Virus record (IMG/VR): IMGVR_UViG_3300021959_000418 | Coordinates: 1 to 23,073 of that record | Length of the DNA: 23,073 nt | Origin: a virus | Strand: one strand, 5' to 3' | Shown here: positions 5,952 to 23,073 of the stretch, in pieces | Numbering within the stretch: position 1 is the stretch's first letter | Layout: each line of letters opens with the position of its first letter | Made by a program: the position numbers and the translations under genes | The notes under the pieces: generated by a model | The model's input: only the letters and a program-made list of their open reading frames with translations | Databases searched by the model: none | What the model was told of the DNA's origin: nothing

Positions 5952-5964
5952 TTTACAATAAAAT

Positions 5965-9264: not shown

Positions 9265-9458
9265 TCGCCGCGTCCTCGCATTGTTTTATCTTCTTCTAAC
9301 CAGACCATACGGTCAATGTCACCACGGTTAAGACCGATGTCTTTAAGTTGTCTGTCTGACAGGGTGTTAAGGTGCTTAATAGCTTGACGATGCTCTGACC
9401 ACATCACTGAGTACCTCAAGAACCTCACAAATATATTGTTTACCCATCTCTTCTTCAT
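9261..9458 (-). CDS. DUF1127 (YjiS-like) small basic protein
   Basis: A 65-residue protein. The core RQAIKHLNTLSDRQLKDIGLNRGDIDRMVW (about 24-53) is the DUF1127 signature: an arginine-rich helix, LSDRQLKDIGL, then RGDI. In Rhodobacter some DUF1127 proteins bind RNA and affect sRNA maturation and stress or phosphate physiology. The N-terminal part (KKRWVNNIFVRFLRYSVMW) is basic and amphipathic. It is coupled by 4-base overlaps to the MazG-like gene above and nrdJ below, and has a GGAG ribosome site about 9 bases before the ATG. The family is mainly cellular, so this is a probable host-derived gene. Confidence 0.8.
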   Translation of the reverse strand: MKKRWVNNIFVRFLRYSVMWSEHRQAIKHLNTLSDRQLKDIGLNRGDIDRMVWLEEDKTMRGRGE

Positions 9459-9811: not shown

Positions 9812-10353
9812 ATCGTTCTCCCGTAGAACTCTGTTGGTGTACCTGATGTCTTCGCTATATCGAAAAGATACCAAGCACAGTTATCTTTACCCACACTCTT
9901 GCTGCCTTCAATCCACTTAACCCTGCCGATACTAACTACCTTAACACAGTACGTCATCAAGATAGCTGACTGCTTAGTGTGCATCCAGTCTGCATCAAAC
10001 AATAGCCATGTAGGACACATCTGCATCCACATTTCCATTAGGGGGTGTAGTATCTTTCTGTCCCACGGGGGGTTAGTGATACAGAAGTCTGTCACCCCAT
10101 ACTCCCCGAAGGTCAGGTCGAGAGCATCATGCTTATAGATGCCCTCAGCCCTTGGCTCAATGTCACAAGCAAACAGACACTCAGCATGACCCTCAGTCAG
10201 TTGCTCAAGGTGTTGGATCAACCTACCGTCACCCGCACAAGGCTCCACATAGTCAAAGGAGTAAGGCAAGTGTGGGATCAGAGGCTCTACAGCTTCGATA
10301 GGAGTGGGATAGTAATCCCTTGGTACTCTCTCAAAGTCGCTGCGTTTACCCAT
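9808..10353 (-). CDS. SAM-dependent DNA adenine methyltransferase-like protein
   Basis: A 181-residue protein. The SAM-binding motif EPCAGDGR (37-44) and the catalytic motif TNPPW (93-97) are characteristic of N6-adenine methyltransferases. DYYPTP near the N terminus (13-18) is also commonly seen in such phage enzymes. No separate target-recognition domain is obvious, so specificity cannot be read. It could protect phage DNA from restriction or mark it for regulation. It overlaps the metallophosphoesterase gene upstream and the MazG-like gene downstream. RNA or protein methylation cannot be excluded from sequence alone. Confidence 0.75.
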   Translation of the reverse strand: MGKRSDFERVPRDYYPTPIEAVEPLIPHLPYSFDYVEPCAGDGRLIQHLEQLTEGHAECLFACDIEPRAEGIYKHDALDLTFGEYGVTDFCITNPPWDRKILHPLMEMWMQMCPTWLLFDADWMHTKQSAILMTYCVKVVSIGRVKWIEGSKSVGKDNCAWYLFDIAKTSGTPTEFYGRTI

Positions 10354-11110
10354 ATAGCTGTTCCAATCTCTTCAGAGATACAAACTCAGGTTCGTATGTA
10401 CCGTTACTGATCTCACGTTTGATAACGACACCCTTCCACCAGTCTAAGTTAGCTTGACCCGCCCAACCTTCCTCAGCACCCTTGAAGCAGCCTGCTACCA
10501 AACCGATAGCACCAGCTGCATCCTTGAACTTCACATCACGCTTGTGGCTGTGACCGCAGGTAGAACTCTTGTACCTGTGGTTGAGCAAACTGTTAGCGTG
10601 GTGCATACCTGACATGGCAGTGCCGTAGTTGCCAGCACTAAAGAAGTGAGCGTAGGACACACCATCGTACTCAGCTATAGCGGGTGCGGAGTTGTGGTAT
10701 TCATGGTACTCGTCAAACCACAGGTCAGTCTGTAGGTGCTTGAAAGACACACCGTACTTGTCACCCTCAATCCGTGGGTCGTGCTTCAAGGCTTTCTTGA
10801 TGCGGTTTTCGTGGTTCCCTTCAAAGCCAAACCAAGCGGAGCGTTTGTACTTCCTAGTAGAGGGCTTTCGTCTAAGACGGTCCATTGACTCATTGTAATG
10901 TTCAATATCTGATTGGTAGCTTTGGCTAACAATAGCCTCAGGGTATCGACCGTCAAAAGTGTTAAGAGAGCGCATATCGGCCCCATCACCAAGATCAATG
11001 ACGTAGTTAGGATTAACCTCATATATCAACTCCCCTAGCCAATCAAACCGCTCATTGTTCGTCGAGGGGTCACTGTGTGCGCAACTAAAGATGATAGCTG
11101 TTTTAGGCAT
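10346..11110 (-). CDS. Calcineurin-like metallophosphoesterase
   Basis: The start is placed at the ATG at 11110 (MPKTAII), with GGGGGAG upstream; a longer frame to 11152 lies inside the previous gene. The 254-residue product shows motif II DLGDGAD (39-45), motif III GNHE (98-101) and motif V GHSH (186-189). Motif I, normally D-x-H, reads C10-A-H12, so one usual metal ligand is replaced. Related phage enzymes cut phosphodiester bonds in nucleic acids or nucleotides, but the substrate here is unknown. It overlaps neighbours by 8 bases on both sides. Confidence 0.8.
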   Translation of the reverse strand: MPKTAIIFSCAHSDPSTNNERFDWLGELIYEVNPNYVIDLGDGADMRSLNTFDGRYPEAIVSQSYQSDIEHYNESMDRLRRKPSTRKYKRSAWFGFEGNHENRIKKALKHDPRIEGDKYGVSFKHLQTDLWFDEYHEYHNSAPAIAEYDGVSYAHFFSAGNYGTAMSGMHHANSLLNHRYKSSTCGHSHKRDVKFKDAAGAIGLVAGCFKGAEEGWAGQANLDWWKGVVIKREISNGTYEPEFVSLKRLEQLYG

Positions 11111-11339
11111 GGTACTTCTCCCCCTCATACGGCACTTTGATCTCAACCGCATCTATGGAGTAATCAAACATACGCTTGAATTTGTAGGCATCATTGAAGG
11201 TATCGAATGGGATATCGTCGGTAAACATATCTCCAGCCTCTACGTCTTCCACACGACAGGTAAGTAGGTAATTTCCACTATCGGGGTCTAGGAAAGCGTC
11301 ATTAAAGACACGATGCACTTTGTATGTTATTTCAGCCAT
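11103..11339 (-). CDS. Hypothetical protein (78 aa)
   Basis: The start is taken at the ATG at 11339 (MAEITYKVHRVFND), 13 bases inside the end of the endonuclease I gene; a longer frame would overlap much more. The sequence is acidic, with an alternating beta-like pattern (GNYLLTCRVEDVEAGDMF) and a helical segment (TFNDAYKFKRMFDYSI). Its stop overlaps the metallophosphoesterase start by 8 bases. It has no membrane segment or catalytic signature, and I do not recognise the family. Confidence 0.6.
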   Translation of the reverse strand: MAEITYKVHRVFNDAFLDPDSGNYLLTCRVEDVEAGDMFTDDIPFDTFNDAYKFKRMFDYSIDAVEIKVPYEGEKYHA

Positions 11340-11725
11340 TCTTCGGGTATCCTTTTGTCTGCGTACATGAAGCCATACTTGTCTGCCCACATGCCCAATG
11401 TTGTCTTAGACCCTTTACGAATCTTAGCCCTACTGTTGCTGAATACAAACCGTATGTCAAGCTCAGGGTGTTGTTTCTTGATCTCTAAATGTTTCATTCT
11501 GTCATCTGTTGTGAAGCGACCTTTTGATTCAACTATCACACCATTAGGCAGGATGAAGTCAGGGGTGTAACTCTTGTTACGGTGCAAGACCCACTTGATC
11601 TTCATGGTCTCGTAGCCGAAAGCTACACCCCTTTGTTTGAGGTCTTCTGATATGTCATCCTCAAGCCCAGAACGGTAACCGTGCTTTATAGCTTGTTGTC
11701 GCTTCGAGCTTTTGGAGGCAACCAT
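11327..11725 (-). CDS. Endonuclease I (T7 gp3-like Holliday junction resolvase)
   Basis: A 132-residue homologue of T7 endonuclease I, which resolves four-way junctions and debranches replicating DNA. The catalytic set can be placed on the sequence: E22 (SGLED), E39 (YE), D56 (YTPDF), E66 and K68 (VESKG). These correspond to T7 E20, E35, D55, E65 and K67. The conserved HPELDIRFVF and the C-terminal IPEEWL also fit. The gene overlaps the end of the 5'-3' exonuclease gene by 40 bases. It probably also helps break down host DNA, as in T7. Confidence 0.95.
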   Translation of the reverse strand: MVASKSSKRQQAIKHGYRSGLEDDISEDLKQRGVAFGYETMKIKWVLHRNKSYTPDFILPNGVIVESKGRFTTDDRMKHLEIKKQHPELDIRFVFSNSRAKIRKGSKTTLGMWADKYGFMYADKRIPEEWLK

Positions 11726-12405
11726 ATCTCACCCTCTTTCCTTCGTAACCAGAGTAGTCTGGCGTTCTCTGTGACCCTATCCTCGTCTCCGTCATACGCT
11801 TTGACGACACGATCCCAGAGGTCTTCTTCTCCTGTAGCACCATCCAGTATCTTTTCTGCCTTCTTTGGTCCAACCTTAAATAGACCCACTATGTTATCCG
11901 CCCTGTCTCCAGTTAGGATTTGAGTATAGAAGAACTTGATACCTTCGTCTGGTGTTACTTTGGTGTAATCGCCCCTGACAATGTTGAAGTGCCAACAGGG
12001 TATCTGTAGCATATCTTTATCAATAGAGGCGACACAAGCATCGTAGCCTAGTCGGGCGGCTTCAATAGCAATGAGGTCATCGGCTTCCTCTCCTTCGCTT
12101 ATAGTGGCTTTATACTTGCTCTCCATGTAGTCTCTGGCGTGTTGCAAGTGTCGGGGTTTCTGAACGCTTTTCCTGTTTCCCTTGTAGACATGAGACTTTG
12201 CAATCTCAAATCGGAAGTTACCCTTACCCGTTAGGTAAACAACGTAGTCTTCCAGTATCTCAGGAAACAGTACAGTCTTGTCTAAGATGAAGTCGATGAG
12301 AGCGTCAACCTTTGCTTCGGTATCTTTCGCTCCCATCTGTTCAGTGGAGAAGGCTGCACGGTAAGCAATGATGTCCCCGTCAATCAGTACCTTCCCCATG
12401 TCCAT
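11686..12405 (-). CDS. 5'-3' exonuclease / flap nuclease (T7 gp6-like)
   Basis: A 239-residue FEN-family nuclease expected to remove RNA primers and degrade DNA. Metal-binding acidic residues appear in order: D9 and D11 (LIDGD), EADD at 107-110, D129 and D131 (SIDKD), and GDRADN at 166-171. A helix-hairpin-helix segment follows (VGPKKAEKIL, 178-187). The ATG at 12405 directly abuts the stop of the upstream small gene, with GGGAGA about 8 bases before it. A second ATG two codons in is less likely to be used. Confidence 0.92.
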   Translation of the reverse strand: MDMGKVLIDGDIIAYRAAFSTEQMGAKDTEAKVDALIDFILDKTVLFPEILEDYVVYLTGKGNFRFEIAKSHVYKGNRKSVQKPRHLQHARDYMESKYKATISEGEEADDLIAIEAARLGYDACVASIDKDMLQIPCWHFNIVRGDYTKVTPDEGIKFFYTQILTGDRADNIVGLFKVGPKKAEKILDGATGEEDLWDRVVKAYDGDEDRVTENARLLWLRRKEGEIWLPPKARSDNKL

Positions 12406-12606
12406 TTAGACGTCTCCCCAGTGCATGTCCCCTGCATCGTCCTCAAAACCTACAGCCTTGACGTAGGTGTATCCCATGGACACAGCAGCTTGAGCGAACA
12501 GTGCAGCTAGGTCTGTAAGGTCCATGACGTTATCTCGAGATACATCTGAACTTCCATCGTAGCCATCCTCGCTCTTATCCATGTAGGCGTTAACAGTTAC
12601 TCGCAT
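12406..12606 (-). CDS. Small acidic hypothetical protein (66 aa)
   Basis: A 66-residue acidic protein (many Asp residues, ending in DDAGDMHWGDV). A clear ribosome site (AAGGGAG) lies upstream, and the gene lies between the SSB gene (11-base gap) and the exonuclease gene (0-base gap). The central DLTDLAALFAQAAVSMGYTYVKAVGF is likely helix then strand. Small acidic proteins here could interact with replication enzymes, but no family is recognised and no function is claimed. Confidence 0.6.
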   Translation of the reverse strand: MRVTVNAYMDKSEDGYDGSSDVSRDNVMDLTDLAALFAQAAVSMGYTYVKAVGFEDDAGDMHWGDV

Positions 12607-12617
12607 TTATATCTCCC

Positions 12618-13169
12618 TTAAAACGCAAACAGTTCATCATCTTCTGAGATGACCGAGTTGTTTTCATATGCCACATGCTCTGTGACGCCAATGTTAAGCA
12701 GTCGTACACCAGCACCGTTTGCATAAACATCAAACTGTACCTTAGCCTTCGTGCCGTTACCAAGTGGACCATCTGCCTCAAAGTCCCACATACGCTTGTT
12801 CTCACGCCCCTGTGTGAGGTCTACGACCTTTGGTGCGCCACCGTAGTCAACTTCCACTGGTTCGCCTGTCTTGTTATCCGTGAAGGTCTTAACGTCTGAG
12901 ACCTTACGTTTGACCTTCATGTATTTACCGATACCCAAGTCTGCATTTCCTTGGAGGATGCGGTTACTGTTCATCGGGTGTAGGTCCAGACCCTCTTTCT
13001 CAAGCTGGTCGATCTGTCCCTGATCGGTGAAATATGCGTTGGTGATGAACTGTCCCCCATTAGCATAGATTGCTTGTGCAGCCCGTGGGCCATCAGCTGA
13101 ACCCATGTCTGCGTTTTGCTCAAACACTTTTGCGTATTCAAGTACCATGTCCATTGTGTATTTAGCCAT
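12618..13169 (-). CDS. Single-stranded DNA-binding protein (T7 gp2.5-like)
   Basis: A 183-residue protein with the features of phage SSBs of the gp2.5 type. A conserved early segment (DQLEKEGLDLHPMNSNRILQGNADLGIGKYMKVKR, about 56-88) is typical of this group. It has an OB-fold-like beta-rich middle and an acidic C-terminal tail ending in an aromatic residue (ISEDDELFAF). That tail normally contacts polymerase and helicase, both encoded just upstream. It is preceded by a strong promoter candidate at 13201-13230 and an AAGGAAA ribosome site, consistent with high expression. Confidence 0.8.
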   Translation of the reverse strand: MAKYTMDMVLEYAKVFEQNADMGSADGPRAAQAIYANGGQFITNAYFTDQGQIDQLEKEGLDLHPMNSNRILQGNADLGIGKYMKVKRKVSDVKTFTDNKTGEPVEVDYGGAPKVVDLTQGRENKRMWDFEADGPLGNGTKAKVQFDVYANGAGVRLLNIGVTEHVAYENNSVISEDDELFAF

Positions 13170-13200
13170 TATCGAGTTTCCTTTCGGCTGTTGGTATATA

Positions 13201-13230
13201 TGTATAACCCTTAATTTTGCCCTATCGCAA
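13201..13230 (-). promoter_or_regulatory. Sigma-70-like promoter upstream of the SSB gene
   Basis: On the minus strand TTGCGA (13225-13230) and TATACA (13201-13206) are separated by 18 bases. A nearly identical element precedes the primase-helicase gene, sharing TATATGTATAACCCTT and CGCAAC (plus-strand reading). The conserved core in two separate gaps argues for real use. Predicted transcription starts about 7 bases past TATACA and gives a leader of roughly 25 nt. Confidence 0.75.
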
Positions 13231-13249
13231 CCAAGGGGTAGAAATAAAA

Positions 13250-15088
13250 TTAGTGGATGTCGGCGTATGTTGTACCGAACTGAGCATCCACACCTAGAGG
13301 CACGTTAAGTTTCAGTTTCTCATTGAGAATTTCTATCGCACCCTCCATGACATTTTTTGTCGCATCCTCTTCTCCTTTCTTGACTACAGCAATGATCTCG
13401 TCGTGGAACTGACCCACAGTTTTGATACCATTCTTACGACACAACGACACCCAACTGTCAAAGCAGAACACCCCAGTTCCTTGGTTGAGAGTGGAGAAAC
13501 GATCCTTCTCACTCCGTAAACTATACCAAAACTTAGACACAGGGTTCTGCAACCACATGCCATCGAAGAAGGTACTTGTACGCACCGTAGAGGCCACCTT
13601 TTCAACTGACCAGTTACGGGACCAGAAAGCATCTAACAGCACCTTACAGTCCTTAGATGGCATCCCAGTGGTGCGTGATAGAGTAGCTGCGCCCACACCA
13701 TATGTTGCGCTGTAGTTAACGACCTTGTAATTCTTACGGAGGGCTTTGAGTGACCGCTCTCCGCTGTTGTGCATGTCGATGTCCTCCTGCGTAATGACCC
13801 CAGCGTGTAGTGCTAAGTCCAAGTGTGGGTCGAACCCCTCTGCTGACATAGCCTCAACATAACTAGGGTCCAGTGGCTTCATGTAGTGGCGCTTAGTAGT
13901 ATCCTCAAGGGATGTCATATCAGCACCGCACAAAGTGTAACCCTCTGGACAGGTCAGGCACCCTCGTATCTCTTTACCGTATGGCTTGTCGATAGAAGGC
14001 AGGTTGACCAGAGGCTTTGCGTGTTTGAAGCGCAGAGTGTTAGTCAGTCCAGCTACAGTAGCCTTAACGTATCCCTCGCTGTGAGCTGTTACCATGCCCT
14101 TAAGGACACCTATGCGGTGTGACAGTACACTGAGACCATCTAGTAGCTCAATGGCTGGCTCAACGGCTACAAGCTCCTTCACAGATGGACAAAGCTCACC
14201 GTCTTTTCGTACCTGCTCTAATTCCCTCGTATCCCCTGTAACCTTGTCACGCATGAACTTGAACGTCCGTGGCTCCCAACCAAGAGAGAAAAGCCAACTC
14301 TTGATCTGTTCGTTAGAGTTGGGGTTAGCACGTTCATGTCCTGTCACTACAGTCAGAGACTGGGTTGTATAGGGTTGTTTAGCACTCTTGCACAACTCTA
14401 TCCACTTCTCGCCCAGCGCAGACAGAGAGCCATCCTTCTTGTGCATAACCTTTGGCTGCGTTCTAACAGATGTTATAACACGCTTAGGCATAGCATCGGC
14501 AAGCAATTCGATCTTCTCTGCCTTAAGTGCTTCCCACTCTGCTAGGTGAGCCTCTGCCTTCTCTACGTCCAGTTTCCACTGTAGGGCTTCTTGCTCTGCG
14601 GCACACTGTAGCTTGAATGTCAGATAGTCAACCAAACGGTCCTTGTCACTTTCCACTGGGTACATCTTGCCCAGCTTGTAGTTGAGGGTCTTCCACAAGA
14701 GGTTGTTGATGCGTACATCTTCCTCACAGCGGTGCTTGTATTCCTCTGGTGACAGGTTCTCCCAATCGTCGATCTTAGGTTTAGGTACACCGTACTCCTC
14801 CCCGTACTCTGCTAGACCGTGCTTTGTCTTCCAGTGGTTGACGTACCAAGAGATACCCAGAGTGTCGATCAGTCGTGCTGTGATCTTGATGCCCAGAATC
14901 TTTTCCACTGCGGGTACATCGTAACGTACAATGTTATGTCCGCAGAGGATTGGACTGTTGAGTAAGACATAACGCATATCGTCATAGTCATGCGTGGATC
15001 GCACCTCGCCTAGATCATTAGACCAAGACAAGACATGGATCAACGTAGGGTCTAGTCCGTCTGTCTCAATGTCAAATACTGTAATCAT
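13250..15088 (-). CDS. DNA polymerase family A (T7-like, 3'-5' exonuclease plus polymerase)
   Basis: A 612-residue replicative polymerase. The exonuclease domain starts with D6 and E8 (FDIETDG), then GHNIVRYD and the EEDV block. Polymerase motif A has D390 and E395 (DMTSLE), corresponding to T7 D475 and E480. Motif B is R451-x3-K455-x3-Y459-x3-Y463-G, with Tyr at the position of E. coli Phe762 / T7 Tyr526. Motif C is H562-D563-E564. The residues after motif A (DTTKRHYMKPLD) differ from the usual LR-type continuation. It is shorter than T7 polymerase (about 704). The ATG overlaps the upstream nuclease-like gene by 4 bases. Confidence 0.95.
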   Translation of the reverse strand: MITVFDIETDGLDPTLIHVLSWSNDLGEVRSTHDYDDMRYVLLNSPILCGHNIVRYDVPAVEKILGIKITARLIDTLGISWYVNHWKTKHGLAEYGEEYGVPKPKIDDWENLSPEEYKHRCEEDVRINNLLWKTLNYKLGKMYPVESDKDRLVDYLTFKLQCAAEQEALQWKLDVEKAEAHLAEWEALKAEKIELLADAMPKRVITSVRTQPKVMHKKDGSLSALGEKWIELCKSAKQPYTTQSLTVVTGHERANPNSNEQIKSWLFSLGWEPRTFKFMRDKVTGDTRELEQVRKDGELCPSVKELVAVEPAIELLDGLSVLSHRIGVLKGMVTAHSEGYVKATVAGLTNTLRFKHAKPLVNLPSIDKPYGKEIRGCLTCPEGYTLCGADMTSLEDTTKRHYMKPLDPSYVEAMSAEGFDPHLDLALHAGVITQEDIDMHNSGERSLKALRKNYKVVNYSATYGVGAATLSRTTGMPSKDCKVLLDAFWSRNWSVEKVASTVRTSTFFDGMWLQNPVSKFWYSLRSEKDRFSTLNQGTGVFCFDSWVSLCRKNGIKTVGQFHDEIIAVVKKGEEDATKNVMEGAIEILNEKLKLNVPLGVDAQFGTTYADIH

Positions 15089-15570
15089 TGTTGCTCTGCC
15101 TCCAAAAAGTGTGTGGCGTGTTTCTGTATGTAATCTAGGGGCAGGATTGTCATAAGGTCTCCACGATCAGGTCTTGCATGAAGTCCAAAGTCGCCCCTAA
15201 AGTGTTCTGTACAGCGTACCCTAAGATCGTCAATAATGTTTGATGGATTAACAAGGTAAAACCCATCGTATGATCTCACTGCAATAAACCTGTCAAAGTC
15301 ATTAGGTACACCCCAACCTTTTGTCGGCTTCCAGTTTGGAGGTCGCTTAACAGTCTTTAACTCCCACCAAATCGTATAGTCGATAGGGCCGCCACGAAAC
15401 TTTCTCTTAGCTGCTTTTACATCAACCATCCCAAACTCTTTGTCGAGTACGTCCCAGTGTTGATGTATGTCTTCTTGTTTAGTGGCTCTCCTGACAAAAG
15501 AGTTTGCTCGTAAACTTATGAACTCTTGCTCTGCTGCCGTGCCCTCCCTTATCGAACTTGTATTTCTCAT
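15085..15570 (-). CDS. Putative PD-(D/E)XK-type nuclease or nuclease-like protein
   Basis: A 161-residue protein coupled by 4-base overlaps to primase-helicase upstream and polymerase downstream. HWDV at 38-41 followed by VDVK at 49-52 gives a D40...D50-x-K52 arrangement typical of the PD-(D/E)XK fold. A preceding conserved helix (AAEQEFISLRAN) and a following strand (IDYTIWWELKTV) also fit. An alternative catalytic set is D64...E70-x-K72. The GWGVPNDFDRFIAV segment resembles the region after the core in such proteins. Its place within the replication core suggests a recombination or repair role. The family call is by motif only. Confidence 0.5.
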   Translation of the reverse strand: MRNTSSIREGTAAEQEFISLRANSFVRRATKQEDIHQHWDVLDKEFGMVDVKAAKRKFRGGPIDYTIWWELKTVKRPPNWKPTKGWGVPNDFDRFIAVRSYDGFYLVNPSNIIDDLRVRCTEHFRGDFGLHARPDRGDLMTILPLDYIQKHATHFLEAEQQ

Positions 15571-17138
15571 ATGATTTCCCTCAGTGTGAATGTATCTGTG
15601 CTAAAGCGGAGCATCCCAGCCAAACCCTCTTCGGAGCATGGGCGATTCTTCTCAACCTTAAGATACGTTGTGTTACGTTCCTCTATACTGTCAGCTTCTT
15701 TGTCACGGGTCAAGTCGATAATAACCGATGCACGTTGACCAATCATCTTACAGTACTTAGGGTCTCCATTCTCGTTTGTGTGTGCAATCGTCACAATGCC
15801 CACGTTAAGCTCTGCTGCCAGCTTCGACAGTCGGATCGACAGGTCAGCCAACATAGCCTCTTTGCTCTCGTCAGACGTACCCACGACCACATCCTGTATA
15901 GGCTCAAAGAAAACAAACTTACAGTCACAAGCCTGACTAAAGAACCTGATCTGGTCGATCAACTCGTCAGTCCCCTGACCATCCCCAAGATAGAACTGAT
16001 AGAAGTTCTCGTCCTTAGTGATGTTAACGATAGCCTCACGAACAAGATCGTCTGCACCCTTCTCTTCGATCAAGTCACGGCGTGTAAGATTGTCACCTAC
16101 CTCATAAGACACAAGGCCCAGAAGTGACCTCAGCTTTGTTTCCTCTAAGTGCCACGCTGCAATCGGGATGCCTTGCTGCAACATGCTGTATTCCATGTAC
16201 CGCATAAGCTCTGTCTTGCCGATACCTGTAGGCGCTTTGAACACTGTGAAGTGTCCCTGCATGAGGCCCAGTATCTTATCGTCTAAGGCTTGGATACCTG
16301 TTGGGTAGTAGGTATGCTCAGGCGTCTCTGTGTACAGCTTTAAGAACTCGTCAGACGTATTCAAGATGTTCTCTGGTGTGTGCTTAACTGGCTTCCACCA
16401 CAGGTTCTTGAACTCTCTTTCCTTCCCAGCCTGTAAGAACTCGTTAGCGTCCTTGTACTCCCCGTGTTGTACCCGATACACCTTGTTAGGGAATAGCCGT
16501 GCCATACGATCAGCTAAGGCGTTCCCAGCATCATCTGTATCAACCGACAGGATGATCTTGTCGAAGGATGCAAGCCACTCGCTACAGTTCTCCCAGAGCT
16601 TCTTAGAGGGCGTTGCAGAGGGTAACGACACCACAGGGTTAGTGTACTGGCTCTTGAGCATTTGCGCTACTGAGAGAGCGTCTAGTTCGCCCTCAGTGAT
16701 GGTTACCATCTTGGAACAACCTGCTGGATACAGGTTCATACCGAATAGCTCGTCACCCTTAAAACCGTTCTTGGCGTAGAAGGCTTTCTCTTCCAGATTA
16801 CGAACCTTGATGCCACCGCTGGGGTACACATACTCCTGACGGTCATCGTAGGTCAGCACGTTGTAATCACGCATCGTGTACTCTTGGATGCCACGCATAC
16901 TTGTGTAACGACCAGAAGATTGGCTCTCTATACGCTTAGGCGTAAATGCTGTCACGTTCATTTCGTAATCCCCCTTCTTTGTTGGGTACTTCTCTTTGGC
17001 CCAATCGAACATTTGTTCTCTGGACGGGTAGCCTCTATCACAACCGTGGCACTTACCAAAACCATCGGTGTTGTAACAGAAGGCGTCACTTGAGCCACAC
17101 GACACATATGGACAAGGTTGATGTGCTACGTCTGTCAT
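15567..17138 (-). CDS. DNA primase-helicase (T7 gp4-like)
   Basis: A 523-residue bifunctional enzyme that primes and unwinds at the fork. An N-terminal zinc-binding domain has C9, C14, C30 and C33. The TOPRIM primase core shows TEGELDALS (148-156) and SVDTDDAG (198-205). A RecA-like hexameric helicase domain follows, with Walker A APTGIGKT (302-309), Walker B-like FVFFEPI and a conserved TIAHTNE. The ribosome site is AGAGGAAA before the ATG at 17138. A promoter candidate at 17215-17244 gives it a leader of about 70 nt. It forms the replication core with the downstream polymerase. Confidence 0.95.
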   Translation of the reverse strand: MTDVAHQPCPYVSCGSSDAFCYNTDGFGKCHGCDRGYPSREQMFDWAKEKYPTKKGDYEMNVTAFTPKRIESQSSGRYTSMRGIQEYTMRDYNVLTYDDRQEYVYPSGGIKVRNLEEKAFYAKNGFKGDELFGMNLYPAGCSKMVTITEGELDALSVAQMLKSQYTNPVVSLPSATPSKKLWENCSEWLASFDKIILSVDTDDAGNALADRMARLFPNKVYRVQHGEYKDANEFLQAGKEREFKNLWWKPVKHTPENILNTSDEFLKLYTETPEHTYYPTGIQALDDKILGLMQGHFTVFKAPTGIGKTELMRYMEYSMLQQGIPIAAWHLEETKLRSLLGLVSYEVGDNLTRRDLIEEKGADDLVREAIVNITKDENFYQFYLGDGQGTDELIDQIRFFSQACDCKFVFFEPIQDVVVGTSDESKEAMLADLSIRLSKLAAELNVGIVTIAHTNENGDPKYCKMIGQRASVIIDLTRDKEADSIEERNTTYLKVEKNRPCSEEGLAGMLRFSTDTFTLREII

Positions 17139-17214
17139 ACTTACGTTTCCTCTATTAGTAATGATATATACTAGAAGTAAGAAAACTTATGTTTATACTT
17201 ACGTTCCCCGTATA

Positions 17215-17244
17215 TGTATAACCCTTGATTTTACAATTACGCAA
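17215..17244 (-). promoter_or_regulatory. Sigma-70-like promoter upstream of primase-helicase
   Basis: On the minus strand TTGCGT (17239-17244) and TATACA (17215-17220) are 18 bases apart. It matches the promoter before the SSB gene in the -10, the adjacent AAGGG and the -35 region. The -35 lies inside the last codons of the sigma-like gene (stop at 17237). An 11-bp direct repeat (17137-17147 and 17195-17205) brackets the leader. Confidence 0.75.
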
Positions 17245-17752
17245 CATCACAAATTGTTACAACCTTGGATTTTATCTTATCTAGTCGCTTCTCACAGGCT
17301 TGTCTTGAGATACCTAAGCTCCTACCGACAGCTGCTGAGTTGTTGTTATTGCTCCAGAAACTGAGTAGTAACTCTTTCTCTTCCTTGTCGAGAACTTTAC
17401 CTAACACCTCTAAAACATTCTTTAGCTCATACGACCCAAAGACATCATCAAGAGATGCTAACTCAAAGTCTTCCTCGGTGTCGTTGATGTTTAAAAAGGA
17501 TGTGTTGTCCTCTTTGATACGATCTAAACCAGCCTGTCCCTTGGGGTAACTGATCTGTGATGAACCGACATTGTAGTAATAGTGCATGGATCGTCTAGCC
17601 TCGTAGTAGAGTGCGGCGGGGCTATCAACCCCACCAGCACGAAGGTCAAGACATTTAACCACACCCTCAGATACTAGGTCGTCATACTCCTGCGAGTTTC
17701 TGTACTTGCCAGCCAGTCTGCGACACATATCTAGGATTTCTTGGTTTGTCAT
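17237..17752 (-). CDS. Sigma-factor-like protein (region 2-like and region 4-like HTH)
   Basis: A 171-residue protein. Residues about 8-37 (DMCRRLAGKYRNSQEYDDLVSEGVVKCLDL) resemble sigma-70 region 2.1-2.2, where a D-L-x-(S/Q)-E-G core is typical. YYEARRSMHYYYN follows as region 2.3-like. The C-terminal part (about 120-165, EEKELLLSFWSNNNNSAAVGRSLGISRQACEKRLDKIKSKV) fits a region 4 helix-turn-helix. It is coupled to the DUF3310 gene (ATGA). It could redirect host RNA polymerase to phage promoters such as those at 13.2 and 17.2 kb. The match is by pattern and divergent, so another HTH regulator is possible. Confidence 0.6.
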   Translation of the reverse strand: MTNQEILDMCRRLAGKYRNSQEYDDLVSEGVVKCLDLRAGGVDSPAALYYEARRSMHYYYNVGSSQISYPKGQAGLDRIKEDNTSFLNINDTEEDFELASLDDVFGSYELKNVLEVLGKVLDKEEKELLLSFWSNNNNSAAVGRSLGISRQACEKRLDKIKSKVVTICDVA

Positions 17753-18060
17753 AGCCTGTCTTTACCCTCCAGTTGATTGATACGCATCTGTGCATAACGT
17801 ATGACCTTCTCAAGGTCTGTGATCTCGCTCTGCACATCGTCCATTCCCTCGTAGGGCTTGTACCCTGCACGACTGGCATACTTGATGATGTTACCACGCC
17901 AGAACTCAAAGCCGTTACGCATGATGTAGGTGATAGGTTCTATTTTCCATCGGGCGTAGTGCTTAGGTTCATGCACGATGTCTGATGTGTGTTCTGCCAT
18001 TACTTTATCCTCAAATGATTCATGCTTTTTCCTTAGTCGATCCCATTCACTCTTTATCAT
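17749..18060 (-). CDS. DUF3310 family protein
   Basis: The start is set at the ATG at 18060, with GGGAGG about 7 bases upstream; the longer frame lies inside the preceding gene. The 103-residue product contains the DUF3310 block: [34 protein letters not shown], then a helix [17 protein letters not shown]. The H-Y...EP and N-(I/V)-KY-(I/A)-xRAG-x-K motifs are signature positions. The family is widespread in phages, often labelled nucleotide-kinase-like, but its biochemistry is not established. It lies between ThyX-side genes and the sigma-like gene in the leftward operon. Confidence 0.85.
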
Positions 18061-18259
18061 AGCGTACCTCCCAATACTTGTTGAACAACTGCTCAAACTT
18101 CCACTCGTATAACTGCTGCATACCCAGCAGAGCGTTCATTAGTTCATCCTGTGTAGGATCACTCTCACCATCACCTATCTGTTTAAACACTGCCTCAAGG
18201 TCATTACACACATTCCAACAGCCCAGAATCATAGGCTCTAAGTCATACAGTTTAGCCAT
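18047..18259 (-). CDS. Hypothetical phage protein (70 aa)
   Basis: A 70-residue, mostly helical acidic protein ([40 protein letters not shown]). It is coupled on both sides: its ATG at 18259 lies within the last codons of thyX (8-base overlap), and its end overlaps the DUF3310 start by 14 bases. The helix-rich tail with regular aromatics suggests a small protein-protein interaction module. No named family is recognised. Confidence 0.6.
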
Positions 18260-18941
18260 CTCTCAGTGCCTCCCACGATACAGGAAATAGCTCAAGCATC
18301 TTTTCATTAATGTTATCTGCAACTAACCTTGTCTCGTATTGCGTATCACTGGCGCAACGTAACTTACACATGGCGGAGAAGGCATCCAAGCTACCTGACC
18401 AGTACCACTCAGTCATAGTAGACTGTGGTAGCACCATACGGGCTTGCTCAGGGGCTACTCCATCTTCAAGCAACTGTTCATAGGAAGCTAGGCAAATCAG
18501 GTAAGGGTGAGTTATTACACTCTCTGAGTAAGTATCATCAAACTCCTGCAATCTAGGGTCTGCGTGTTCGACAAAACCTTCACTACCTTGCTTCTTGTCT
18601 TTGCTACGGCCTCTCCATTTACCTTTAGTTGGTTCATAGAACTCAATATTTTCAGTCGTATATCGCCTCGACACTTCGTTCCAACGAAGAAATTTATGCT
18701 TTACAAGTTGCCGTGCTACAAAGATCGGAGCCTTAACCCTAAAGGTAGCGAAGCAATGACCAAAGGGACTGATGTGCTTCTCTCTGGCAAGGTAACGGAT
18801 CAGCTTTGCATCTTTCTCTTTGAGCTTAGGTGGACCCCAAGCATCGTCTTCTAGCTCACTCTCTTTCTGAAAGCTCACCCGTGCGCTATTGGCAACCGTT
18901 AGGTCACTACCGCAGTGGTGTATATACTCAGCTTTTATCAT
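18252..18941 (-). CDS. thyX: Flavin-dependent thymidylate synthase
   Basis: A 229-residue ThyX from the ATG at 18941; a TTG one codon earlier is less likely. It methylates dUMP using FAD and NADPH without needing dihydrofolate reductase. The ThyX signature region is present in altered form: [14 protein letters not shown] (81-94), against the canonical RHRxxSxNExSxRY. Supporting segments are [14 protein letters not shown], the VLP block, and QYETR near the C terminus for the usual (A)QxEIR. A GGAGTGA ribosome site precedes the start. It complements RNR in supplying dTMP for replication. Confidence 0.93.
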
Positions 18942-19113
18942 CAAAATTCACTCCTATACATTCTACTGTTTCATTCTTGTCATTGACCATAACCGAAGCA
19001 TCCTTCAGTGCAGTCTTACAAAAGGTTTCATTCTCATACGTCCCTAAGTGATAGTACCTTACGTCAGTATCAGGGACAACGACAAACCATATTAGTATCC
19101 ATATTGTATTCAT
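18928..19113 (-). CDS. Small putative secreted or membrane-anchored protein (61 aa)
   Basis: A 61-residue protein. Residues 1-14 (MNTIWILIWFVVVP) are very hydrophobic and aromatic, like an uncleaved anchor or signal peptide. The rest is polar with two Cys (C32, C52), which could pair in the periplasm. The ATG overlaps the previous stop (TAATG on the minus strand), and its 3' end overlaps the thyX start by 14 bases, so translation is plausible. No family is recognised. A superinfection or envelope-modifying role is only a guess. Confidence 0.5.
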   Translation of the reverse strand: MNTIWILIWFVVVPDTDVRYYHLGTYENETFCKTALKDASVMVNDKNETVECIGVNFDDKS

Positions 19114-19268
19114 TAGAACGGCACCTCTCCATTTCCATTGCGGGGGTCATTAAAGTATCCTTTCTCTAGGTAGATATGACGGGTATCGGTAACAGCTGCG
19201 ACCTCTTCGATCTGAGTAGGCTCCATCAAACCCATATCACGCATGTGCTGCTCAAGTGTAATGTTCAT
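19113..19268 (-). CDS. Small acidic hypothetical protein (51 aa)
   Basis: I prefer the ATG at 19268 (MNITLEQHMRDMGL), with AGAGGG upstream, because the longer frame to 19322 sits inside the SleB-like gene. The 51-residue product is acidic and lacks hydrophobic segments, ending in DPRNGNGEVPF. It is coupled at its 3' end by a one-base overlap (19113). No family or motif is recognised. Confidence 0.5.
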   Translation of the reverse strand: MNITLEQHMRDMGLMEPTQIEEVAAVTDTRHIYLEKGYFNDPRNGNGEVPF

Positions 19269-19269
19269 T

Positions 19270-19665
19270 TCATTTTCCCTCTGGGGCTGTGTAAAAGATA
19301 TGTGATCCAATCTGACCGTCACGCTTGTAGTGATTCGACCAACTTGGTGTAACGTATGTAGCGTGGTAGTGGGTGCTTGTCAAGCCTACCTTGTCTCCAT
19401 CTAGCGCAGAGATTGCTACTGCCTCTGCTATCCGTACTGCCTGCCTATCGAACACGTTGTCCATATGCTCCCAGTAGCGGTCATGCTTTCCATCGTGGGT
19501 GAAAGAGAACTGCTTACGCTCGAACACTACGTCACAGACTTCCTCGGGCCAGCGTGGTGAGGCGGCACGGTTAAGCACTACCTCAGCTACCGCTCTCTGG
19601 CCTTCTAAGGGCTGATCTCTAGCCTCAAAGAAGACCGCTGCTGCAAGACACATCAATGGGGTCAT
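19270..19665 (-). CDS. SleB-type cell wall hydrolase
   Basis: A 131-residue protein matching the hydrolase_2 / SleB fold. It starts almost directly in the catalytic domain: AAAVFFEARDQPLEGQRAVAEVVLNRA (8-34), with E14 the likely catalytic glutamate. PRWPEEVCDVVF and QFSFTHDG then follow, all hallmark segments. SleB-like enzymes act as lytic transglycosylases or amidases on peptidoglycan. It has no signal peptide. It lies in the leftward block with replication genes, far from the M15 endolysin in the lysis cassette, so it may serve a different step. The ribosome site is weak (GGTAAACT before the ATG). Confidence 0.88.
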   Translation of the reverse strand: MTPLMCLAAAVFFEARDQPLEGQRAVAEVVLNRAASPRWPEEVCDVVFERKQFSFTHDGKHDRYWEHMDNVFDRQAVRIAEAVAISALDGDKVGLTSTHYHATYVTPSWSNHYKRDGQIGSHIFYTAPEGK

Positions 19666-19717
19666 AGTTTACCTATCCAATGGGTTACGTCGTCGTGTGG
19701 ATCATCACATTGTGACA

Positions 19718-19975
19718 TTAGTTGATTTCTACTACCGCTTCTTCGTGGAAGCACTTCCAGCTGTTCTCAGAGACAGAGAAGATAGGGATGTAGCCGTTAG
19801 CCTTCATGGTCTCAGATACCACACGACCCTTGGCGTTGCCAATGATGTGGCTGGAGGGACGGAAGAGGCCGTTTACTACACGCTCACTGCCATCTTTCTT
19901 GATGAACTTTACTGTAGCGAAACGTGTACCACGGGACTTAACGATGTCACGAACTGTTGTTTTACTGATAGTCAT
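19718..19975 (-). CDS. SH3-barrel-like small phage protein
   Basis: An 85-residue protein. The stretch TRFATVKFIKKDGSERVVNGLF (about 17-38), then GYIPIFSVSENSWKCFHEEAVVEIN at the end, follows the pattern of small phage proteins annotated as SH3 beta-barrel-like (F.KKDG..R...., then a final strand pair). These have no assigned activity. The ATG at 19975 overlaps the previous gene's stop by one base, with AGAAGGAAG upstream. It is followed by a 52-base gap before the SleB-like gene. Confidence 0.5.
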   Translation of the reverse strand: MTISKTTVRDIVKSRGTRFATVKFIKKDGSERVVNGLFRPSSHIIGNAKGRVVSETMKANGYIPIFSVSENSWKCFHEEAVVEIN

Positions 19976-20298
19976 TATATGCTTCCTTCTGCATGTGTGT
20001 TTGTATTGAGACCTGTATAGAGTGATTCGTTGTGGGCGTCAAGCACATAGTTCCACTCTTCTTCCATGTCGATCATAAACGGTGGGTTCATAGTCTTCGC
20101 AGTGGTGTTGTATGCGACACAGTAATCACCTAATGGCTTGATAAGTGTCATGTATTTCTCATTCATATGCTTGGCAACCTTCTCTGCTTTCTCTATCTGC
20201 ATAAGAGGTAGGTTTAGAGCAAAGGGTCCACGCTTAGGGTGTACCACAGCCACAGTATATACTTTGTTCTCGTGCTTAAACATCTGAGTCATTTTCAT
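19975..20298 (-). CDS. Hypothetical protein (107 aa)
   Basis: A 107-residue soluble protein that starts inside the tail of the small zinc-ribbon gene (23-base overlap). An in-frame ATG two codons later is a possible alternative. The N-terminal half looks like beta-strand then helix (NKVYTVAVVHPKRGPFALNLPLMQIEKAEKVAKHMNEKYM), and the C-terminal half is acidic (DMEEEWNYVLDAHNESLY). No catalytic or membrane motif is recognised. Coupling to neighbours on both sides supports it as a genuine gene. Confidence 0.6.
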   Translation of the reverse strand: MKMTQMFKHENKVYTVAVVHPKRGPFALNLPLMQIEKAEKVAKHMNEKYMTLIKPLGDYCVAYNTTAKTMNPPFMIDMEEEWNYVLDAHNESLYTGLNTNTHAEGSI

Positions 20299-20410
20299 TC
20301 CATTCTTCTACTTGTTGTGAGTATTCGTAACAGTGCTTGCACACACCTTGATCGTCTATCTTATCCTCGTCCACGATGCGACCACACTCTTCGCAGACTT
20401 CCTTGTTCAT
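20276..20410 (-). CDS. Small zinc-ribbon-like protein (44 aa)
   Basis: A very short frame with strong support. Its ATG at 20410 overlaps the stop of the cytidylyltransferase gene (ATGA), and it has a paired cysteine layout C6-x2-C9 ... C24-x2-C27 typical of a zinc knuckle or ribbon. The tail is acidic (QQVEEWNENDSDV). It may bind nucleic acid or a protein partner such as host RNA polymerase. The function is not evident from sequence. Confidence 0.7.
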   Translation of the reverse strand: MNKEVCEECGRIVDEDKIDDQGVCKHCYEYSQQVEEWNENDSDV

Positions 20411-20808
20411 TCTGTGTAACATTCCAACACTCTCTTTCTTAGCTCCGTTGTAGAGTAACCGTGGTTACGCTTGTTGTAGTGTACATACTGGGTAAAGCCC
20501 CTACCCGTGTACTGGTATCCCTCATACTCCTCCCCTATGACACGGATGTCAACCTCATGTGCGAACAGAAGCTCCTTAAGCTCTTCCTCTGTAGAGTACA
20601 CAACAACCTTGTCTACATACTTGATAGCCTCTAGCTGTATCTGACGCTCGACAAGAGACTGTACTGGCTTGTTCTTGTTACTACGCTCTATGCTAGGGTC
20701 AACGTGCAACCCTACTATAAGGTAGTCACACACGGTGGCAGCTTCCTTTAGCATCATAACATGACCTGCATGTAACAGATCAAAACAACTCGCTGTAAAT
20801 CCTATCAT
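20407..20808 (-). CDS. Nucleotidyltransferase of the glycerol-3-phosphate cytidylyltransferase type
   Basis: A 133-residue protein of the HxGH superfamily. FDLLHAGHVMML holds the HxGH motif (H13-A-G-H16). GLHVDPS and IGEEYEG are typical later segments, and YSTTELRKRV near the end corresponds to the (I)STT motif. Such enzymes join CTP to a phosphorylated alcohol or sugar (TagD, RfaE C-domain). It could modify phage or host surface polymers or a nucleotide cofactor, and the substrate is not deducible. A strong ribosome site (AAAGGAG) precedes the ATG at 20808. It is the first gene of the leftward block. Confidence 0.85.
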   Translation of the reverse strand: MIGFTASCFDLLHAGHVMMLKEAATVCDYLIVGLHVDPSIERSNKNKPVQSLVERQIQLEAIKYVDKVVVYSTEEELKELLFAHEVDIRVIGEEYEGYQYTGRGFTQYVHYNKRNHGYSTTELRKRVLECYTE

Positions 20809-20843
20809 TGTCTTCTCCTTTGTTTATACGAATCACTTTACAT

Positions 20844-20910
20844 ATTTCCACTGAGGGGGTCAAGACTAATTTCCACTGGGGGGGTCTGGCTAATTTCCAC
20901 TGGGGGGGTC
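20844..20910. repeat. Three tandem 24-25 bp G-rich repeats
   Basis: ATTTCCACTG followed by a G-rich run and TC starts at 20844, 20869 and 20893, so the spacing is 25 then 24 bases. Copies 2 and 3 are identical over about 22 bases. They sit 35 bases upstream of the first leftward gene, at the point where sequence character changes. On the minus strand each reads GACCCCC..CAGTGGAAAT. This may be a regulatory array or the repeat-bearing end of a vanished insertion element. Confidence 0.85.
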
Positions 20911-20960
20911 TGGGGTGACGATAGGGCCGATTCGGACCCAAGTGTGGTATTTCTGCAACG

Positions 20961-21164
20961 TGACAAATTTGCCACTTGACAATCGACGAATCGTAAGGTG
21001 TGACATTCTTGCCACAGTGACATTTGTGCAACTGATTCGGTAAAACATTTTTGCAACACTTGACTCCCGACGAATCTTGATGTGTGACAAATCTGCAACT
21101 GATTCGGGTGTGATATAAATACGACACTTGACAAGCCATTTGTGACATTTATGCAACTGATTCG
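20961..21164 (+). repeat. Iteron-like cluster: six copies of a 15-bp direct repeat
   Basis: Copies of TGACAttTnTGCaAC, all on the same strand, start at 20961, 21001, 21018, 21043 (degenerate, AAACA start), 21085 and 21143. Those at 21018, 21085 and 21143 continue as TGATTCG. A longer composite unit (CACTTGAC, 4 bases, GACGAATC, 5 bases, GTGTGACA) occurs twice, near 20974 and 21058. No gene is visible in this stretch. It may be an origin, an operator array or a control region for both gene arms. Confidence 0.75.
21111..21119 (+). promoter_or_regulatory. Possible extended -10 promoter element, rightward
   Basis: TG-A-TATAAA at 21111-21119 has the extended -10 form, but no good -35 lies 16-18 bases upstream. 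It sits between iteron-like copies at 21085 and 21143. If used, it would read toward the right-hand operon through the small minus-strand gene. Weak evidence. Confidence 0.25.
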
Positions 21165-21231
21165 CACCTGCCGTCCTTCGGTGTTTTTTGCGACCGCGAT
21201 TCGGAAAATCTAGCCCTGAGTCATATAGTGT

Positions 21232-21257
21232 GGGGGACGTCAACCCCCCTTTTGACG
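21232..21257 (+). other. Overlapping alternative hairpins in the divergence region
   Basis: GGGGG (21232-21236) can pair with CCCCC (21244-21248). The intervening CGTCAA (21238-21243) can instead pair with TTGACG (21252-21257). The two structures exclude each other. Each is followed by only modest T content, so a classical terminator is not clear. Confidence 0.35.
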
Positions 21258-21265
21258 CTTTGGAT

Positions 21266-21433
21266 TTATTTTTTCGGTGTGATGTCATATTCCGTGGTGA
21301 GCAGATTCCACATCATCATTGCTGCGGTTGTCACCATCGGGTCGCGAGCGTCCGCAATCCAGTTTTCTAATTCGCGCATATCTTTCGGTGTGTGAAAAAA
21401 TCCGATTGGCGATAGTTTTGATTCTGTTGTCAT
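21266..21433 (-). CDS. Small hypothetical protein (55 aa) inside the divergence region
   Basis: A 55-residue minus-strand frame from the ATG at 21433, with AAGGA about 9 bases upstream, to a TAA at 21266. The sequence (MTTESKLSPIGFFHTPKDMRELENWI, then TAAMMMWNLLTTEYD) has a balanced composition and looks like a helical small phage protein. A good ribosome site and sensible amino acid content support it. It is separated by more than 450 bases from the leftward block and would need its own promoter. No family is recognised. Confidence 0.55.
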   Translation of the reverse strand: MTTESKLSPIGFFHTPKDMRELENWIADARDPMVTTAAMMMWNLLTTEYDITPKK

Positions 21434-21597
21434 ATCTGCTGTCCTTCTTATCAGCGTTTCGATAACCCCTTATGGCATACGATTCGCCATAGGTCAAGCG
21501 CAAAATTAAATTCACTTTTGATTAGATTCCACTTGCGAATCGTTTGGGCATATGCGAATAAGATGACAAGGAAACACAAACACAAGGGAACGACAAA

Positions 21598-21771
21598 ATG
21601 ACATACGCAGAAACAAGTGACTTGGTAAGAGCGATTGACGAGATTGAGACATGGGCAGGCTCTATAATGAGAGAACATGCAAAAGAATCAATGGATTATG
21701 ATCGCATACTCACGATGGAAAAATACTTGAAAGAGGCGAAAGAAAAGATTTTTGACATCGCCAACAAATAG
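21598..21771 (+). CDS. Small helical hypothetical protein (57 aa), first gene of the right arm
   Basis: A 57-residue plus-strand frame with AAGGGAACGACAAA directly before the ATG. A nearly identical leader (AAAGGAACGACACA) precedes the next gene, which supports both starts. The protein is charged and predicted all-helical (LVRAIDEIETWAGSIMREHAKE; MEKYLKEAKEKIFDIANK). No family is recognised. As the first rightward gene after the control region it is a candidate early, host-directed protein. Confidence 0.65.
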   Translation: MTYAETSDLVRAIDEIETWAGSIMREHAKESMDYDRILTMEKYLKEAKEKIFDIANK

Positions 21772-21779
21772 GATCGAAA

Positions 21780-21799
21780 CGGGGGTGACCTAGCCCCCG
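21780..21799 (+). other. GC-rich hairpin between the first two right-arm genes
   Basis: CGGGGG (21780-21785) pairs with CCCCCG (21794-21799) around an 8-base loop. No T-run follows, so it is not a standard terminator. It may stabilise or process the mRNA between the two small genes. The last base of the stem begins a GANTC site (21799-21803). Confidence 0.5.
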
Positions 21800-21850
21800 A
21801 ATCGCCCCATAAAGATTGCACAAGTTAACACCGATAAAAGGAACGACACA

Positions 21851-22111
21851 ATGACACCCGAACAAACCCTAATCAAAGGCTTAGACGATGCAGCGATTGC
21901 GCGAGTCTACCATCGCAAACGTAACCCCGCCCCCACGACACCCCCATTCATGGAACGACTCGCAAGTTTTCTTGCCAAGTTAACTGGCATTTTATATTTC
22001 GGCTTTTTGTGCTTCTGCCTTGGCTACTTCTCGACTCTATATTTTGACGGACTCTTGTTTGAGATTCCTGGTCTCTTGTCATATTGGATTGATTTTGGGG
22101 GTGCGCAGTAA
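21851..22111 (+). CDS. Small membrane protein, function unknown (86 aa)
   Basis: An 86-residue protein. A soluble basic N-terminal part (MTPEQTLIKGLDDAAIARVYHRKRN) is followed by a hydrophobic segment at about 40-65 (LAKLTGILYFGFLCFCLGYFSTLYF) and a short hydrophobic C-terminal tail (LLFEIPGLLSYWIDFGG). One or two membrane helices are likely. The leader AAAGGAACGACACA precedes the ATG. The stop overlaps the next start (TAATG at 22109-22113), so the two genes are coupled. No family is recognised. Confidence 0.65.
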   Translation: MTPEQTLIKGLDDAAIARVYHRKRNPAPTTPPFMERLASFLAKLTGILYFGFLCFCLGYFSTLYFDGLLFEIPGLLSYWIDFGGAQ

Positions 22112-22731
22112 TGGAAACTCTAATCAAAAACATCATTGCCACACGGCGCAAGGCAACATCAGACGATATCAAGGACGGAGTCGAATGGTATGCCATAGCG
22201 CAACAGAATTGCCTAGACATTGCCGAGTCGCATTGTATGCCTCTCAATATCGTCGTCGGTGTTGTTGCCGCCCTATCGCCTAACAACAAGTGGTCCCGCA
22301 ACATTGCAAACGCAAACGATTTGATTGGCGCTTTCATGAATGGTGACACCATCGAGTCGGTCAAGGTGTCCACATATAACACGATGAAACAGAAGGCTTG
22401 GGGTATCCTTGAGGCTATGCCAGACGACAACAAATCCATTATGCGAATGTTGAATGGTCAGAAAATCATCGCCTTCTTTGAGTGCATCATGGACCTAGAC
22501 TCTTGCTGCATCGACGGGCACGCGCGGAACATTGCTTACAATGAGCGCATAGGCTTGACAGACGATAGAACCAACATCGGAAAGCGTGAGTATAAAGAAC
22601 TTGTGCAAGCCTATGTAGCGGCCTCTAAACGATGCTCTATCTTAGACAATGGCAAGCGCCGCAATCTTAAGCCCTATGAATTGCAAGCGATAACATGGAC
22701 AGTCTGGCGCAAACAGTGGGGGATTGTATAA
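22111..22731 (+). CDS. HhH-GPD DNA glycosylase-like protein (divergent)
   Basis: A 206-residue phage protein with an order of motifs like endonuclease III. ALSPNNKWSRNIANANDLI (54-72) resembles the LSAQTTD..VN.A helix region. MKQKAWGIL (92-100) resembles NSKAENI, and LNGQK (114-118) sits where the helix-hairpin-helix loop (LPGVGRK) would be. CCIDGHARNIAYNERIG (132-148) resembles the VDTH..R block with the catalytic Asp (D135). No iron-sulfur cysteine set is seen. It may bind or cut damaged or modified DNA, or be a non-catalytic relative. It is coupled to both neighbours. The call is by eye. Confidence 0.45.
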   Translation: METLIKNIIATRRKATSDDIKDGVEWYAIAQQNCLDIAESHCMPLNIVVGVVAALSPNNKWSRNIANANDLIGAFMNGDTIESVKVSTYNTMKQKAWGILEAMPDDNKSIMRMLNGQKIIAFFECIMDLDSCCIDGHARNIAYNERIGLTDDRTNIGKREYKELVQAYVAASKRCSILDNGKRRNLKPYELQAITWTVWRKQWGIV

Positions 22732-22973
22732 TGAGAAAAGTTATACAGCACAGGACAAACAAACACAGCAGACTCGAGTTTGAATATCGCAATCTAGTAT
22801 TCCGCAAGGACTCTGACAAGTGGCATTGCTTCTATGTTTACGATTGCCCTAACGCTTGCCGCTTACACGCAGAAGAATTGAGGATCGACAAGCCACAATT
22901 GGACTTCATGCCTGTATCGTGGCGCTTGGACGTCCACACCTATAGCGTTCTGCCAGACTGGGACGACGATTAG
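22731..22973 (+). CDS. Hypothetical protein (80 aa)
   Basis: An 80-residue protein. The ATG at 22731 overlaps the previous stop (TAATG), so I prefer it to an upstream in-frame start. The sequence is basic then acidic, rich in aromatics and His (KVIQHRTNKHSRLEFEYRNLVFRKDSDKWHCFYVYDCPNACRLHAEEL). Three Cys (one in WHC, two in CPNAC) might bind a metal, but the spacing does not match a known zinc motif. It ends in PDWDDD just before the terminator. No family is recognised. Confidence 0.6.
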   Translation: MRKVIQHRTNKHSRLEFEYRNLVFRKDSDKWHCFYVYDCPNACRLHAEELRIDKPQLDFMPVSWRLDVHTYSVLPDWDDD

Positions 22974-23000
22974 ATTCTATATCATGTGACTCCCTAACTT

Positions 23001-23027
23001 GGGGCGCTTTCGGGCGTCCCTTTTTTT
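23001..23027 (+). terminator. Rho-independent terminator of the right-arm operon
   Basis: GGG-CGC pairs with GCG-(T)-CCC around a TTTCGG-type loop (23001-23020, with one bulged T). A run of seven T follows (23021-23027). It lies 28 bases after the last right-arm stop codon and would end rightward transcription. Confidence 0.85.
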
Positions 23028-23073
23028 GTGCCTTGTCATTGGCTTGACTCTTGTTTGTGTCTTGATTGTGTCG

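Follow-up and report, generated by a model that had tools for sequence, protein, structure and literature searches.

The CRP-6-type roseophages carry a dense island of GANTC sites, which is composed of a divergent control region and one predicted early operon and is bounded by that transcription unit. The sites are kept by selection in both the non-coding and the coding DNA of the island. From the sequence evidence presented below it is considered somewhat probable that the island is read by the host through the methylase CcrM and the cofactor GcrA, and that it controls early transcription.

GANTC content of the window and of the phage bodies

The window is the whole stretch of DNA analysed, 23,073 nucleotides of an IMG/VR roseophage contig, and its features are listed in Table 1. 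Over positions 1-20809 it is about 89% identical to Roseobacter phage CRP-6 (MK613348), whose host is Rhodobacteraceae FZCC0042 of the RCA lineage, and this alignment arrives at the beginning of the CRP-6 record at 20.8 kb. The counterpart of the remaining DNA is the opposite end of the record, where alignment is limited to about 190 bp of the control region. CRP-6 is complete, the relatives of the window being mostly metagenomic fragments. The group is reported to be abundant in coastal oceans (PMC6918029), and a primase search of sequenced bacterial genomes yielded no provirus or phage contig.

Table 1. Features of the window, with positions counted from its first letter
Feature	Positions	Strand	Remarks
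GANTC-poor body	1..20829		22 GANTC, ~80 expected
Genes in body	1..20829		tail fibre, lysis genes, PhoH, class II RNR, MazG, exonuclease, DNA polymerase, primase/helicase, ThyX, endolysin, cytidylyltransferase
Divergent control region	20809..21597		between replication and early operons; 15 GANTC, 7/15 YGATTCG
GANTC island	20830..23073		31 sites; right end cut by contig end
GANTC directly after -10	20830..20834		context TGATTCG on - strand
Leftward replication-operon promoter (predicted)	20835..20863	-	hexamer scan; 22 distinct versions in relatives
Three iteron copies	20844..20910		ATTTCCACTGRGGGGGTC; overlap replication promoter
Five iteron copies	20960..21164		GTGACAnnTnTGCMACW; GATTCG follows three: GTGACAnnTnTGCAACTGATTCG
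Early ORF, 57 aa	21598..21771	+	relatives in islands L006, L147, L163; no Pfam or PHROG match
Early promoter-like unit	21785..21813	+	GTGACC-N17-CATAAA, GAATC (21799-21803) in spacer; hexamers assigned by inspection
Early ORF, 86 aa	21851..22111	+	hydrophobic stretch, probable membrane protein; conserved in five islands
Early gene, 206 aa	22111..22731	+	DUF7178 / phrog_3842; homologue of SIO1 gp9
Early ORF, 79 aa	22734..22973	+	relatives in five islands
Intrinsic terminator	23001..23020	+	GGGGCGCTTTCGGGCGTCCC then T7; probable early-operon end

An earlier note on this DNA had described, from counts made by eye, a jump in GANTC density at about 20.8 kb; the exact counts agree with its figures and the boundary is right to the base, position 20830 being where a GANTC adjoins the -10 hexamer of the promoter for the leftward replication operon. 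In the full comparison with shuffled controls that the note had proposed, the left part (1-20829) contains 22 sites, or 1.06 per kb, and lies below the range of dinucleotide-preserving shuffles (79.7 +/- 8.3, minimum 57), and the right part (20830-23073) contains 31, or 14 per kb, and lies above it (9.7 +/- 2.9, maximum 18). Fifteen of the latter fall in 20830-21541 (21.1 per kb, dinucleotide-shuffle mean 3.4) and 16 in 21600-23073 (10.9 per kb, mean 6.0), the density expected from single-base composition being about 3.8 per kb. When the 53 sites were placed at random in 2000 trials, no 2244-bp stretch received more than 16, against the 31 observed. The right/left ratio per kb is 13-fold, and the runner-up among 16 control words (each base once around a central N, strands merged) reaches 2.5-fold.

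The same picture was obtained with 20 islands, where GANTC is the most over-represented four-base word (608 observed, 169 expected, 3.6-fold), and with the bodies of the same phages (210 observed vs 839 expected, 0.25), so that a pattern of restriction-site avoidance holds in the body and is reversed in the island. The note had also suggested that GANTC was lost from the main body. The depletion is real but not special, since the roseophages without an island have observed/expected values of 0.30-0.54 and host loci, at 0.24-0.27, are as low as the phage body; GANTC avoidance is known for the class Alphaproteobacteria (PMC3973325) and, outside the island, it is ordinary. The low level in the body matches that of the host (~0.25) and is accounted for by the avoidance of methylase or restriction sites found in phage and host genomes, which cannot however yield the enrichment of the island. 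Other words are avoided as well: in the window (1-23073) CCGG is absent (~68 expected), CCNGG occurs once, and CGCG is strongly avoided in the body and not in the island. The same avoidance is seen family-wide and looks like the result of separate restriction or modification pressures.

Extent of the island and origin of its genes

The CRP-6 island comprises 38 GANTC in 42433-44927 (2.5 kb), the other 42.4 kb containing 31. In all 33 related contigs with a recognised replication promoter the island lies on the early side, with 1015 sites in 76.4 kb on that side (13.3/kb upstream) vs 136 in 80.1 kb on the other (1.7/kb downstream), pooled counts that are inflated by the kinship of the contigs. 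Three long contigs (32-43 kb) have one island each, which in the 42.6-kb contig is split between the two ends. Distant family members, with terL down to 57% identity, show the same pattern. Conservation of the sites in related phages, the check on which the earlier idea could have failed, was thus found across the family. Roseophages CRP-4, CRP-5, CRP-7, CRP-345 and SIO1 have no island, their GANTC being low and even (the CRP-7 and CRP-345 records covered to 50 kb), and no promoter units like those of the island were found in these five. A scan for three close TGATTCG recovered real islands mostly from the CRP-6-type family; the inspected hits outside it were mostly repeat arrays.

The right boundary is visible only in relatives, as the island of the window reaches the contig end. 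In these the island covers the divergent control region and the early operon, and a gap of 0.3-0.5 kb separates its end from the small terminase gene; in the window the terminator at the right end probably closes the operon. The label "early" for these transcripts rests on gene order. The position of the island between the control region and the terminase genes would suit a packaging or DNA-entry mark, either a P1-like pac under methylation control or a label on the first-entering end of the DNA. Such a mark is very improbable: the island does not reach the small terminase gene, its length far exceeds that of P1 pac, and its sites are most crowded at the other end, where the promoter lies.

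The early operon of the islands is formed by variable small genes (DUF7178, GP88, DUF7227 and small membrane proteins) and appears as a cassette mosaic in which DUF7178, GP88 (phrog_1617) and DUF7227 (phrog_2554) swap between close relatives. At early-gene starts of CRP-6, G002, G006 and L006 the Shine-Dalgarno sequence is often itself a GANTC (GGAGTC, GGACTC, GGAATC). In the relative G004 (L205), 1.9 kb within positions 1-2300 hold 52 GANTC; tandem TGATTCGTTCC units contribute to these, and 27 lie in one 981-bp ORF.

That the arm had been acquired separately was a further suggestion of the earlier note. In one form of this explanation the early arm came from a GANTC-rich donor, and in another it is merely a region free of restriction-site avoidance; its k-mers do differ in other respects, CGCG not being avoided and GTA being rare. 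However, the homologues of the arm genes elsewhere are GANTC-poor. The DUF7178 gene has 31 sites in 4.9 kb in CRP-6-type phages (6.3/kb) vs 14 in 21.4 kb elsewhere (0.65/kb), and the GP88 gene 215 in 16.6 kb (12.9/kb) vs 15 in 10.3 kb (1.5/kb). Because these two early gene families are GANTC-rich only in CRP-6-type phages, the island is not imported DNA. The density also persists though the gene cassettes differ between relatives, all of them being GANTC-rich, the level is 3.6 times above random, which is beyond mere relaxation, and other palindromes show no similar rise. An imported arm was ruled out by the GANTC-poor homologues together with the synonymous-codon shuffles described below, and a donor or relaxed region is the least credible of the explanations considered.

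Control region and promoters

In the window the predicted replication promoter is formed by a -35 TTGACC (20863-20858), a 17-bp spacer and a -10 TAAAGT (20840-20835). Among the 22 distinct replication promoters of the relatives the spacer is 17 in 21 and the -10 is mostly TAnnGT, giving the general form TTGACC-N17-TAnnGT followed at once by GATTC. The early-side units of the relatives have the form TTGACY-N17-18-YATAAA with GAATC in the spacer, their hexamers assigned by inspection. Thus GATTC abuts the weak -10 of a conserved, predicted sigma-70-type replication promoter, and GAATC lies between the -35 and -10 of the putative early promoters.

The control region of the window contains two iteron families, and repeats of the ATTTCCACTGRGGGGGTC family were present in the 10 control regions compared. 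Their core in the window (TTTCCAC, 20844-20910) resembles the alphaproteobacterial DnaA motifs NTCCACA quoted in PMC4287350. The control regions of L004, G006 and G008 have arrays of the 10-bp unit GGTATRCGAT where other relatives have GTGACATTnTTGCAAC iterons, as if operator sets had been swapped. Simple tandem repeats were rejected as the source of the sites, the iterons accounting for only part of the non-coding ones. No Rfam match to an RNA element was obtained.

The main rivals of a host-read promoter island are an origin-timing element, considered here, and a decoy for CcrM or GcrA, considered with the selection on sites. In the former the island would mark the phage origin, and GANTC left hemimethylated by replication would time re-initiation, as SeqA and GATC do at E. 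coli oriC. GANTC also rises around the chromosomal ori in Alphaproteobacteria (PMC9836097), and what these clusters have in common with the island is a high density of sites for a cell-cycle methylase where replication or control elements lie. The island begins at an iteron-rich divergent region beside the replication operon and sits at the cumulative GC skew minimum. It is however phage-borne and bounded by a transcription unit, its density running on through 1.5-2 kb of early genes and stopping at the operon end; divergent transcription accounts for the skew minimum as well, a polymerase and a primase are encoded by the phage itself, and the bias for YGATTCG at promoters is not predicted by an origin. 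These hosts have no known SeqA-like reader, and an origin-timing role is judged unlikely.

Selection on the sites and the host CcrM/GcrA circuit

In 45 island genes there are 158 GANTC against 72.4 +/- 6.1 in synonymous-codon shuffles (z 14), an excess found in all three frames, and body genes have 14 against 58; none of the other four-base palindromes behaves like GANTC under these shuffles. In aligned islands (~83% identity) 84.8% of the GANTC are intact, which puts GANTC first among 256 words of this form (mean 57%), and the excess holds at every divergence level from 75 to 97% identity. The central N does not vary more freely than that of other words (identical in 0.96 vs 0.90), which gives no support for pure methylase recognition. 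Spacing is essentially without periodicity apart from a faint 10-bp component, and gaps below 10 bp are under-represented.

In the decoy explanation, the 30-50 sites per genome, multiplied by many copies, titrate host CcrM or GcrA and upset the host cell cycle. The high total density, with coding sites counting like non-coding ones, agrees with this, as does the lack of an evident fixed periodicity or operon position, save the few gaps below 10 bp. A sponge, though, predicts neither confinement to one transcription unit nor placement beside a -10, and it predicts turnover of sites where individual sites are conserved instead. The decoy is marginally less probable again than the origin.

The sites belong to two classes: control elements have YGATTCG, and genes have generic sites rich in GASTC. 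YGATTCG (TGATTCG plus CGATTCG) makes up 103 of 249 non-coding sites vs none of 152 coding sites, and YGAKTCG matches 132 of 424 sites in 12 islands, 46 being expected from composition. Caulobacter GcrA is described as activating at TGATTCG / YGAKTCG in PMC7987155, which also states that the extended motif was not found in Brevundimonas. Even in Caulobacter, GcrA ChIP peaks and GcrA-dependent genes fit GANTC only loosely (PMC7987155, PMC4287350). GcrA of three Alphaproteobacteria prefers fully methylated GANTC over hemimethylated or unmethylated DNA (PMC3667746), and Caulobacter promoters with GANTC between -35 and -10 fire 40-60 min into the cell cycle (PMC4287350).

Host genes were counted in relatives of Lentibacter, of the same family as the RCA host, and at this family level GcrA was identified in 61 of 61 genomes and a CcrM-type RAMA domain in CcrM-sized ORFs in 57 of 61. 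In the phages, none of 11 records (several of them fragments, CRP-6 complete) matched PF01555 or PF07750, the families searched for an encoded N6/N4 methyltransferase or GcrA. In the Lentibacter genome L430, which otherwise avoids GANTC, five sites fall within about 160 bp at ~6820-7000, each of them a TGATTCG on one strand or the other; the translations of the flanking ORFs look, when judged by eye, like dnaG and rpoD. The host sigma-70 itself may be under GcrA/CcrM control.

The island resembles the GcrA/CcrM sigma-70 promoters of Alphaproteobacteria (ctrA P1, mipZ, podJ and others) in having GANTC in the core region of predicted promoters, the Caulobacter-derived motif YGAKTCG, sigma-70-type hexamers and the same host clade. 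The host promoters mostly have a single site (in PMC4287350, 50 bp around the TSS include more than one at 11 of 96 cell-cycle TSSs), whereas the island of this lytic phage has 30-50 sites over a whole operon. The earlier proposal of a CcrM link, with sites kept in the control region and early arm, stands in that the enrichment concerns precisely GANTC, the CcrM word, the family conserves the sites and the promoter contexts fit the reported GcrA/CcrM promoters; that the phage senses host methylation is what we infer from these.

In the favoured reading of a host-read island, host CcrM would methylate the GANTC sites, and host GcrA, as sigma-70 cofactor at m6A-GANTC promoters, would then turn on the early and replication promoters, so that phage expression would track how far the phage control region is methylated and where the host stands in its cell cycle. 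Promoter activation alone does not explain the coding sites, because these are without the extended motif. More speculatively, the coding-strand sites (mostly GASTC, never YGATTCG) might capture processive CcrM like an antenna, or might integrate the methylation state; either could make the adjoining promoters switch fast and together, for example when methylated early DNA becomes hemimethylated replicated DNA. A wider proposal, which is possible but falls a little short of probable, is that of an operon-scale epigenetic island, where the whole early unit, coding DNA included, is set in CcrM sites and host methylation with GcrA would time the early and replication programmes, coupling lysis to the cell cycle with no sensor encoded by the phage.

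Clusters of host adenine-methylase sites in phage control elements have precedents in enterobacterial phages, which use Dam (GATC) clusters of about 100-200 bp and few sites, as in P1 pac and Mu mom. The island shares with these the local clustering in a control region; it differs in covering kilobases and the whole early operon, coding DNA included, instead of forming a small cluster within a control element, in involving another methylase, and in that its site is avoided in the rest of the genome. The phiCbK-like Caulobacter phages encode a GcrA homologue, and phage use of the GcrA circuit was proposed there (PMC3556154); the CRP-6-type phages encode no GcrA and carry sites instead. The paper describing CRP-6 makes no mention of GANTC or CcrM, and among the publications found by pairing GANTC with phage terms no title or abstract describes a similar island.

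If the favoured reading is true, the island would tie a marine lytic phage directly to the CcrM/GcrA cell-cycle circuit of the host, through a link that is conserved and can be tested. It also offers a natural assay of the effects of dense GANTC methylation and is a case of coding DNA under selection for the site of a host methylase. This family avoids GANTC nearly everywhere and packs dozens of sites into 2-3 kb, which suggests that the virus may read the cell-cycle methylation of its host to time infection.
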